The notes under the pieces were generated by a model. That model was not told the DNA's origin. It was given only the letters and a program-made list of their open reading frames with translations, and ran no database searches. Shown in pieces: positions 5,885-11,368 of a stretch of 44,296 bases of DNA. The number at the start of each line of letters is the position of its first letter. Within the stretch, counting starts at the first letter, position 1. Position numbers and translations under genes: made by a program. Source of the DNA: Bacilli bacterium (GTDB lineage: Bacteria > Bacillota_I > Bacilli_A > RF39 > UBA660); assembly GCA_017622175.1 (NCBI GenBank), contig JAGARQ010000017.1, positions 1-44,296 of the forward strand. The letters are read 5' to 3'.

Positions 5885-7504
5885 ATGAAAAAAACATTCA
5901 TATTTGGACATAAAAAACCGGATACAGATTCAGTAATGTCAGCAATTGCCTTATCTCATTTAAAAAATGCTTTAGGTGAAAATACAGAACCAAGAATATT
6001 AGGTGCAATAAACAAAGAAACAACATATGCCCTAAAATATTTTAATTTAAAAATGCCAGAGTATTTAAATGATGTAAAATTACAATTAAAAGATGTTAAC
6101 TTTCATAAAGGGTTTTTAATAAAAGAAACAGACTCTATTTATAACGGATATCAATACATGTTAAGAGAAGGTCTTACTGGTTTACCAGTGGTTAAAGAAA
6201 ATGGTGAATTCAAAGGATTGATTACCATCAAGGACTTATCTCATACTATGATTAATGAAAATGTTGATGACTTATATACGTCATATGATAATTTATTAGA
6301 GGTTTTAAAAGCAGAGCCAATTTTACGCTTTAATGATGAAATAGTAGGTAAAACACTAGTAGCTTCATATCGTAGTACTACATTTATGGAAAATGTTAAA
6401 TTAGAAAAGAATATGATTTTAATAGTAGGAGATAGACATAGTATTATTGAATATGCAGTTGAATCAGGAATTAAATTATTAATTATCTCATCTGATTCAG
6501 AAATTAAAGAAAAACATATTGAAATTGCTAAACAAAATAAAGTAAACATTATGCGTACAGCCTATGATACTTATCATATAGCCAAATTACTTACACTAAC
6601 AAACTACATAAAAACAATGATTAGAAGTTATAATCCTACAAAATTTGAAAATACAGAATTTGTAGATAGTGTAATTGAAATAAATAATAAGTTAAAACAT
6701 ACTAATTATCCAATTGTAGATAAGAGAAATAAATGTTTAGGATTACTTAGAATAACAGATTTAAATGAAAAAAATCCTAAAAAGGTCATCTTAGTAGATC
6801 ATAATGAAAAACTTCAAAGTGTTGAAGGGCTAGATGAAGCAGAAATCTTAGAAATTATTGATCACCATAACTTAGGAAGTATTACAACAAATACTCCAAT
6901 TAACTTTAGAAATATGGCAGTTGGTTCGACTTGTACAATTATTTATACATTATATAAAGAAAGAGAAGTGCCAATTCCAAAAAGCATTGCCGGAGCATTA
7001 TTATCAGGTATTATTTCTGATACACTTATATTAAAAAGTCCAACAGCAACATCAAAAGACATTGCTGCTGTCCAAGAATTAGCAAATATTGCTGAAGTAA
7101 ACTACATTGATTACGGAATGGCAATGTTAAAAGCAGGAACATCATTAGAGGGAATGAGTAAAGCTGATGTTTTATATAATGACTTCAAATTATATACAGT
7201 AAACGGCAGAACTTTTGCAGTAGGTCAATTCTTTACTATGAACTTTGATGAAATAGAAAGAGAAATAGAAGACTACATTCATGTACTTGATGACGTGGCT
7301 GAAGCAAATAATTATTCATTAGTAACACTATTTGTAACAGATATTATCAATAACGGTAGTTATGTCATCTATAATACAAAAGGTCAAGAAATAGTATCTC
7401 TTGCCTATGAAAAAGAAAATATAAAACAAGGACAATTTATTAGAAACTGTGTATCACGTAAAAAACACGTTGTTCCAATGATTATGGAAGTTCTAGAAAA
7501 CTAA
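5885..7504 (+). CDS. ppaC: Mn-dependent family II inorganic pyrophosphatase with CBS and DRTGG regulatory domains
   Basis: Hydrolyses pyrophosphate to phosphate in the cytoplasm. The DHH catalytic domain is split: the N-terminal part has GHKKPDTDSV, then CBS repeats and a DRTGG domain (about 70-300) are inserted, then the catalytic part resumes with LVDHNE and IIDHHNLG, and a DHHA2 domain ends in SRKKHVVPMI. At 539 residues it has the usual length of CBS-containing PPases, in which adenine nucleotides bound by the CBS pair tune activity. GAAAGG lies upstream of the ATG. The next gene starts nine bases after its stop, so it probably leads an operon with the undecaprenyl phosphate genes. Confidence 0.95.
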   Translation: MKKTFIFGHKKPDTDSVMSAIALSHLKNALGENTEPRILGAINKETTYALKYFNLKMPEYLNDVKLQLKDVNFHKGFLIKETDSIYNGYQYMLREGLTGLPVVKENGEFKGLITIKDLSHTMINENVDDLYTSYDNLLEVLKAEPILRFNDEIVGKTLVASYRSTTFMENVKLEKNMILIVGDRHSIIEYAVESGIKLLIISSDSEIKEKHIEIAKQNKVNIMRTAYDTYHIAKLLTLTNYIKTMIRSYNPTKFENTEFVDSVIEINNKLKHTNYPIVDKRNKCLGLLRITDLNEKNPKKVILVDHNEKLQSVEGLDEAEILEIIDHHNLGSITTNTPINFRNMAVGSTCTIIYTLYKEREVPIPKSIAGALLSGIISDTLILKSPTATSKDIAAVQELANIAEVNYIDYGMAMLKAGTSLEGMSKADVLYNDFKLYTVNGRTFAVGQFFTMNFDEIEREIEDYIHVLDDVAEANNYSLVTLFVTDIINNGSYVIYNTKGQEIVSLAYEKENIKQGQFIRNCVSRKKHVVPMIMEVLEN

Positions 7505-9995: not shown

Positions 9996-11258
9996 ATGGA
10001 GCATAATAGAAAACAAAAATTATTAATGATTATTGCGCTAGTAGTAGGAATTGCATCCCTATCTGTAGGTTTTGCAGCGTTCTCAGTAAGTTTAAATATC
10101 TCTTCAAGTGCAAGTGTAAGCCCTAGTTCTGATACATTTAGTGTTAAATTTTCAACTAGTCAAAATAGTTTAGTTGTTGGTGCAGTAACACCATCAAGTA
10201 AAACAACAGGTATCGCAACAACAGATGGAGTAATTGATAATGGAACTAATCCAACAATTAAAAATTTATCCGCAACATTTACTAGTCCTGGACAATATGT
10301 AGAATATACTATTTATGCTAGAAATGAAGGAGAATACACAGCTTATTTAAATAATATTAATTTCTTGGGAGATAAAACTTGTACAGGAGAAACAGGAACA
10401 ACAACTTCATTAGTTACAAGTGCATGTGAATCAATTAATATCTCCGCAACAATAGGAAATACAACATATACAGAAACAACACCTATAGAAGGACATACTT
10501 TAGCAAAAGGTGTAGGAGAACAAATCAAAATAAGACTTGAGTATTCATCAAGTGGTACAGCAGTAGATGGTGCATTCTCAATTGAATTTCCAAATGTAGC
10601 ATTAGTTTACTCAACATTAGATGATTCAAGTATTCAACCAACAGTAACAAAAGTAGTAAACTTAGTTAGTGGAAACTTAAATGATCCAGGAAGTATAGTA
10701 TCCATTGGAGATGAACAATTCTATGTATTTGGTCAAGAAGATGGAAATGTCAAATTACTTTCAATGTATAACTTACATGTAGGAAATCAGTATGATGATG
10801 ATAATGGACCTATTGCATTAAGCAATCCAACAGGAATACAAAACAGCAAAGCTATTGGTTATTTTGATGGATATTCTCCAGAAAATCCAATTATAGGAGC
10901 AACAGCATTTTCATCAGATAGTCAAAAAGGTACAAATTATAGCGATTATAACGGAAGTATAGTAGAAGGATATGTAAATAACTATGCATCATATTTAGAA
11001 GGCTTAGGAGCAAATATAGAAGAAGCAAGACTAATAACAAAAGAAGAATTAGAAGCGTTAGGGTGTGCCAGTTCTAATATAACATGTAGTGGAGCTCCAG
11101 AATTTGTATACAAAACATCATATTGGTCGGGGTCGGCCTTTGATACTAACTATGTATGGAATGTAGGTAGTTATGCTATCTTTGGCGCCGACTCCTATAG
11201 CGGTGTTAACGCTTTCGGCGTGCGTCCAGTTATAGAAATCTCAGTATCTGAATTCTAG
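9996..11258 (+). CDS. Membrane-anchored surface protein with C-terminal C-type-lectin-like variable domain (candidate DGR target)
   Basis: A 420-residue protein. Residues about 9-30 (LLMIIALVVGIASLSVGFAAFS) form a signal anchor. A Ser/Thr-rich beta domain (about 40-205) looks like TasA/camelysin-type extracellular repeats, with two cysteines (about 130 and 144). From about 220 (IGDEQFYVFGQEDGNVKLLS) a second domain begins that resembles DUF6273-type C-type-lectin-like folds, with a CASSNITC pair and a final YWSG...FGVRPVIEIS block. Bases 11121-11230, coding the end of that block, are about 49% G+C by my count in a very AT-rich gene, and use GGC, GCC, GAC, TCC, AGC and TTC codons. That is the pattern left by adenine-directed mutagenesis of AAC/AAT template codons, as in DGR targets. 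A hairpin follows the stop. Host function is probably ligand binding or adhesion. Confidence 0.8.
   Translation: MEHNRKQKLLMIIALVVGIASLSVGFAAFSVSLNISSSASVSPSSDTFSVKFSTSQNSLVVGAVTPSSKTTGIATTDGVIDNGTNPTIKNLSATFTSPGQYVEYTIYARNEGEYTAYLNNINFLGDKTCTGETGTTTSLVTSACESINISATIGNTTYTETTPIEGHTLAKGVGEQIKIRLEYSSSGTAVDGAFSIEFPNVALVYSTLDDSSIQPTVTKVVNLVSGNLNDPGSIVSIGDEQFYVFGQEDGNVKLLSMYNLHVGNQYDDDNGPIALSNPTGIQNSKAIGYFDGYSPENPIIGATAFSSDSQKGTNYSDYNGSIVEGYVNNYASYLEGLGANIEEARLITKEELEALGCASSNITCSGAPEFVYKTSYWSGSAFDTNYVWNVGSYAIFGADSYSGVNAFGVRPVIEISVSEF
11121..11240 (+). other. Candidate DGR variable region (VR) at the 3' end of the surface gene
   Basis: Codons from Tyr376-Trp377 to the GVRPVIEI block are GC-rich and dominated by NNC/NNT forms, unlike the A/T-ending codons before it. 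The GC-rich GGCGTGCGTCC at 11217-11227 could be part of the initiation-of-mutagenic-homing segment. The template repeat and reverse transcriptase are not in this window, so the call is by composition, position and the hairpin downstream. Confidence 0.6.
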
Positions 11259-11272
11259 AAATCTATGATTTC
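11258..11272 (+). repeat. Small inverted repeat at the stop codon of the surface gene
   Basis: GAAATC, loop TAT, GATTTC. The first G is the last base of the TAG stop. It lies between the variable region and the larger hairpin at 11278; no T-run follows. Confidence 0.5.
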
Positions 11273-11277
11273 GTTAT

Positions 11278-11307
11278 GGGTACAATTTGTGGAACAAATT
11301 AGTACCC
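11278..11307 (+). repeat. Strong hairpin/cruciform downstream of the candidate variable region
   Basis: GGGTAC-AATTTGT (11278-11290) pairs with ACAAATT-(A)-GTACCC (11294-11307), 13 bp with a one-base bulge and an apical GGA(A). No T-run follows, so it is not a standard terminator. In Bordetella phage BPP-1 a hairpin/cruciform just beyond the variable region is needed for DGR target recognition; this element sits in the comparable place. Confidence 0.7.
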
Positions 11308-11368
11308 AGCTAAACCAGCCGAAAGCTTACTTGTAATAAAAAACATAATTGATAATATAAAAAATAAT

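Follow-up and report, generated by a model that had tools for sequence, protein, structure and literature searches.

Does a DGR that lies elsewhere in the genome rewrite the end of a gene for a membrane-anchored protein in a Bacilli bacterium (RF39; UBA660)? In a DGR, a template RNA is carelessly copied and the copy is pasted into a gene, so that many versions of a binding site arise. The sequence studied here, called the window throughout, is the whole 44,296-nt contig JAGARQ010000017.1 of assembly GCA_017622175.1, which comprises 66 contigs and 1.43 Mb at 95% completeness. The target gene (9996..11258, plus strand), delimited by its open reading frame and by alignment with paralogs, encodes 420 amino acids that form an N-terminal hydrophobic segment, an N-terminal domain shared by a large paralogous family and a C-terminal DUF6273-like (C-lectin-like) domain. 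The family of this N-terminal domain (MEHNRKQKLL...GFAAFS...LNISSSA) has about 28 matches in the source genome, several of them in tandem clusters. The hydrophobic segment, together with membership of so large a family, suggests that the predicted protein is displayed at the cell surface, where it may bind a ligand. A sequence-only reading of the window had described the C-terminal domain as C-type-lectin-like. Pfam C-type-lectin models gave no match to the target protein, but a weak relation to DUF6273, seen through matches of family members, lends weak support to the broader description, as DUF6273 has been reported with a C-lectin fold (PMC10743442). A search for PDB sequence relatives of the domain found none, and a structure model built from the single sequence (pLDDT 40) was too poor for use.

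The end of the gene departs sharply from its surroundings in composition. Bases 11121-11230 have a G+C content of 49.1%, against 29.9% for the whole window, a value reached by 0.6% of all 110-base windows. This bears out the sequence-only reading, which had put the segment at about 49% G+C in an AT-rich gene and had pointed to its NNC/NNT codons. Counting 28 codons from TCG GCC onwards against the 379 codons in the remainder of the gene, we found that 24/28 end in C or T compared with 169/379 elsewhere (Fisher p=2e-5) and that 10/28 end in C compared with 28/379 (p=6e-5), while GC3 rises to 12/28 (0.43) from 42/379 (0.11; p=5e-5). The homologous segment of four full-length paralogs (C11, C29, C38 and C52) has 30-35% G+C and no such shift, and in a fifth paralog (C35) the end has a GC3 around 0.1, indicating that the shift is a property of this gene copy rather than of the domain. 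Across relatives, segment GC3 falls mostly into two groups, at about 0.5-0.8 and 0.03-0.2, with C11 (0.29) and L263 (0.26) between them; the window segment, at 0.48 in this comparison, marks the lower edge of the upper group. A 674-aa protein (L053, contig C59) carries the same C-terminal domain in two tandem copies, the second of which has a GC3 of 0.45 near its end and there an ACG GGG TCG start resembling that of the window segment; this second copy is perhaps a decayed variable region (VR).

Comparison with an ortholog from another species of the genus resolved the segment into its parts. The ortholog (L055 1202-2389, genome G002) shows the same rise of GC3 at its end. Alignment of the two genes delimits a 5' anchor of 21 identical bases (11118..11138, plus strand), a variable core (11139..11214) with 25 differences, of which 23 fall at first or second codon positions, and a 3' anchor of 28 identical bases (11215..11242) that encodes GVRPVIEIS and at which, judging by its position, the IMH would be expected. 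The VR thus lies at or near the end of the gene, as first proposed, with limits slightly displaced from the earlier coordinates. Differences at codon positions 1, 2 and 3 number 12, 11 and 2 within the VR and 95, 71 and 144 outside it (positions 1 and 2 against position 3, Fisher p=9e-5), corresponding to divergences of 30%, 28% and 5% inside and 28%, 21% and 42% outside. Just 2 of 40 third positions in the VR have changed, and when every 32-codon window of the gene was scanned, third-position changes relative to those at positions 1 and 2 together were fewest in the VR. This A-restricted pattern, tested between orthologs against a template repeat (TR) that is itself reconstructed, is the DGR signature: a template rewritten at its adenines would account for it, whereas ordinary divergence would not.

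The same alignment yields much of the template. Setting A wherever the two VRs differ, which gives a minimum estimate of template adenines, we reconstructed TCATATTGGTCGGGGTCGGCCATTGATACTAACAATGTATGGAATGTAAGTAGTAATGCAAACTTTGACACCAACTACTATAACAATGATAACGAAATCGGCGTGCGTCCAGTTATAGAAATCTCA, encoding SAIDTNNVWNVSSNANFDTNYYNNDNEIGVRP. The window and congener VRs have no non-A mismatches to it, by construction, and paralog C11 has 30/83. Because third positions in the VR are nearly unchanged between genes that have diverged by 42% at third positions outside it, both lineages appear to have been written recently from near-identical templates. The congener G002 carries the VR signature, but neither an RT (reverse transcriptase) nor the large hairpin described below was found in it.

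The source genome encodes a single RT, in a DGR cassette on contig C42 whose known template belongs to another class than the window VR. This RT (L014 4493-5977; 494 aa, PF00078, motifs IGAMTSQ and YMDD) is fused at its C terminus to a MutS domain I (MutS_I), and its best PDB sequence relative is 8ub7, which we take to be the BPP-1 bRT DGR complex. The cassette consists of the RT, an Avd-like protein of 123 aa encoded upstream of it (with a weak Avd model score, E=0.003), a TR and an adjoining VR, and remote VRs lie on contigs C8 and C66; with each A read as N, the TR matches itself and all three VRs with zero mismatches. As a source of the window VR the C42 TR was rejected, giving no match at <=8 non-A mismatches in 60 bases, and it serves other genes. 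About 400 bp upstream of this TR, on the minus strand (L014 about 6915-7030), we observed a second copy of the template module, with a 3' flank 93% identical and an interior nearly devoid of adenine. Its 3' end reads CGTCCGT, as in the VRs, where the intact TR has CGTCTGT; possibly this copy is a template that came to target itself until its adenines were burnt out. Contigs C8, C42 and C66 all end within near-identical DGR target genes, and contigs C55 and C63 end within N-terminal halves of the target family, breaks which indicate that DGR loci are under-assembled in this genome.

A closer counterpart of the window gene stands beside a complete cassette in G276, a genome of another genus in the same family. 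On contig C76 of G276 the order is target, TR, MutS_I-like gene, Avd and RT, MutS_I forming here a 133-aa gene of its own, flanked by TR and avd, and the C-terminal domain of the target is homologous to that of the window gene. The TR encodes SAFDTNNVWNVNSNGNFNNNNYDNDNNYGVRP, matching the template reconstructed for the window in length, frame and invariant positions. It writes four VRs in the homologous domain, one adjoining and three on other contigs, which differ from it at 19-22 of its 33 adenines and at 2-5 of its 63 other bases. RT homologs (E<=1e-15) occur in 133 of 291 family genomes, a count that possibly includes some non-DGR RTs, and of 30 RT loci that were scanned, about half have a TR/VR pair next to them. 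Seven relatives (L242, L064, L065, L067, L069, L070 and L071) show the RT-MutS_I fusion seen in C42, one of them just below the Pfam cut-off.

The resemblance to G276 extends beyond the coding sequence to two hairpins 3' of the VR. The small hairpin, GAAATC-TAT-GATTTC (11258..11272, plus strand), lies directly at the stop codon and has a counterpart, GCCAC-GAA-GTGGC, at the equivalent place in the G276 DGR. The large one, TGGGTACAATTTGT-GGA-ACAAATT(A)GTACCCA (11277..11308, plus strand), is a candidate DGR target hairpin. Its loop is GGA, a single base bulges from the stem and there is no T run; the DNA fold computed over 11190-11345 has z=-4.6. The cis VR of G276 is followed by an equivalent pair, the large member of which agrees in shape, in its bulge and in the GGA loop, and lies at nearly equal spacing; between window and G276, 5/13 of its base pairs are compensated, with both sides changed and pairing kept, which we treat as supporting evidence because the comparison covers two sequences. 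In BPP-1, a hairpin 3' of the VR is needed for efficient homing (PMC3240598). Retention of a hairpin of the cis type suggests that the window gene once adjoined a cassette of its own, or does so in other strains. The hairpin was also considered as a universal mark of targets and rejected as such, given that the remote VRs on C8 and C66 and the congener VRs end in terminator-like hairpins.

Neither a pattern in which A is tolerated nor blastn found a TR for the window VR in the assembly (95% complete, 66 contigs), where the sole match to an A-tolerant 60-mer was the window VR itself, and none was found in the two congeners G001 and G002. Across about 380 (386) family genomes the reconstructed TR returned poly-A artefacts only, and a pattern for the G276-type TR returned G276 only. 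No TR or RT follows the hairpin within the 44,296-nt window, and phage and viral collections gave nothing relevant; short stretches of the 5' anchor (15 and 18 bases) matched some viral contigs. The genome thus contains the DGR-type RT that the sequence-only reading had anticipated, complete with TR and remote VRs, but the near-identical template repeat expected beside it was not found in the assembly. A second cassette could be missing from the assembly, because contigs C8, C42 and C66 end in DGR target genes; the template of the window VR may be unassembled, or it may have been lost.

Loss of the template bears on whether the VR is still being written. It is quite possible, though not the reading to which we incline, that the VR is a relic, written by a G276-type cassette that has since disappeared, so that diversification has ended, the C42 DGR being of another template class and unable to serve the gene. 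Such a history would be in keeping with the absence of a matching TR from the assembly searches and the poor fit of the C42 TR, with a cis-type hairpin that is followed in the window by neither TR nor RT, with a comparable VR in a congener lacking any RT, and with the like case of SP32 in Treponema denticola (PMC4891356). Set against it are the VR third positions, with 2/40 changed compared with 42% elsewhere, which point to recent writing in both lineages, and the division of the assembly into 66 contigs with breaks in the target genes of C8, C42 and C66, which leaves room for a second cassette. The relic is a sub-case of writing by a DGR in trans with the activity removed, and the confidence placed in the two overlaps. 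An origin without any DGR, by gene conversion, ordinary divergence or selection for diversity in a binding loop, the G+C shift having come with horizontal transfer of the segment, is very improbable: the gene does belong to a paralog family with divergent tails, in which window and C11 differ at all codon positions (14/18/18), but window and congener keep their third positions while positions 1 and 2 change, the changed stretch is flanked by two perfectly conserved anchors, and in G276 TR, RT and Avd can all be seen with the homologous domain.

We are thus left with the reading first proposed, that 11118-11242 is, with high confidence from the sequence comparisons, a VR written by a DGR from elsewhere in the genome. 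Three lines of evidence carry this reading: orthologs differ in an A-restricted pattern, the source genome itself contains a DGR with remote VRs, and in G276 a homologous domain is accompanied by TR, RT and Avd. For which TR and RT would serve the window gene, and for continuing activity, we rely on inference. The most likely process is mutagenic retrohoming in trans, with a membrane-anchored lectin-like protein as its target. An error-prone reverse transcriptase would copy a template RNA with AAC/AAT codons, misreading its adenines, and the cDNA would then take the place of the VR; the 3' anchor, and probably also the hairpin after the gene, would guide it there. The outcome would be a randomized patch of about 25 residues at the C terminus of a membrane-anchored lectin-like surface protein. 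We also entertain, as a doubtful extension, the idea that a single RT-MutS_I fusion drives several template classes and dispersed chromosomal lectin-like genes, the window gene among them, in a small-genome lineage with related RTs in nearly half of its sampled species, and that the MutS-type domain steers the mispaired cDNA/target duplex past repair.

Remote targets of this kind are easily overlooked: according to Roux et al., their own survey method, which looks for a VR beside an RT, misses them (PMC8144416). Here such a target was recognized, and its template largely reconstructed, from two orthologs alone in the absence of a template, and the finding suggests that in a small-genome bacterial family a set of chromosomal surface proteins undergoes diversification in trans. 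Among the closest parallels, Treponema denticola has remote DGR targets, including in isolate SP32 a VR left from a DGR type absent from its own genome (PMC4891356). As here, VRs lie far from the core cassette and one VR fits a template type not found in its own genome; unlike T. denticola, with its HRDC accessory gene, the window system has accessories of Avd-like and MutS_I type, and its target is DUF6273-like. Thiohalocapsa PB-PSB1 has incomplete DGR loci and candidate remote targets for which diversification in trans has been proposed, with diversification seen in populations (PMC10907252). It shares with our case the presence of several DGR classes per genome and of targets without a complete adjoining cassette, but its targets are putative conflict-system sensors, whereas the window target is a membrane-anchored lectin-like protein. 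As in the BPP-1 DGR (bRT, Avd and Mtd; PMC3240598), an A-specific VR lies at the C terminus of a target with a C-lectin fold, here a putative one, and is followed by a 3' hairpin; unlike in BPP-1, the target is chromosomal and remote, the RT of the source genome is fused to MutS_I, and the hairpin is longer, with a 3-base GGA loop in place of the 4-base GRNA. Finally, in gut phages too a DGR hypermutates a C-lec domain of DUF6273 type, to which the domain of the window gene is weakly related through family members; there the domain belongs to receptor-binding proteins (PMC10743442), whereas the window target belongs to a chromosomal family of membrane-anchored proteins.
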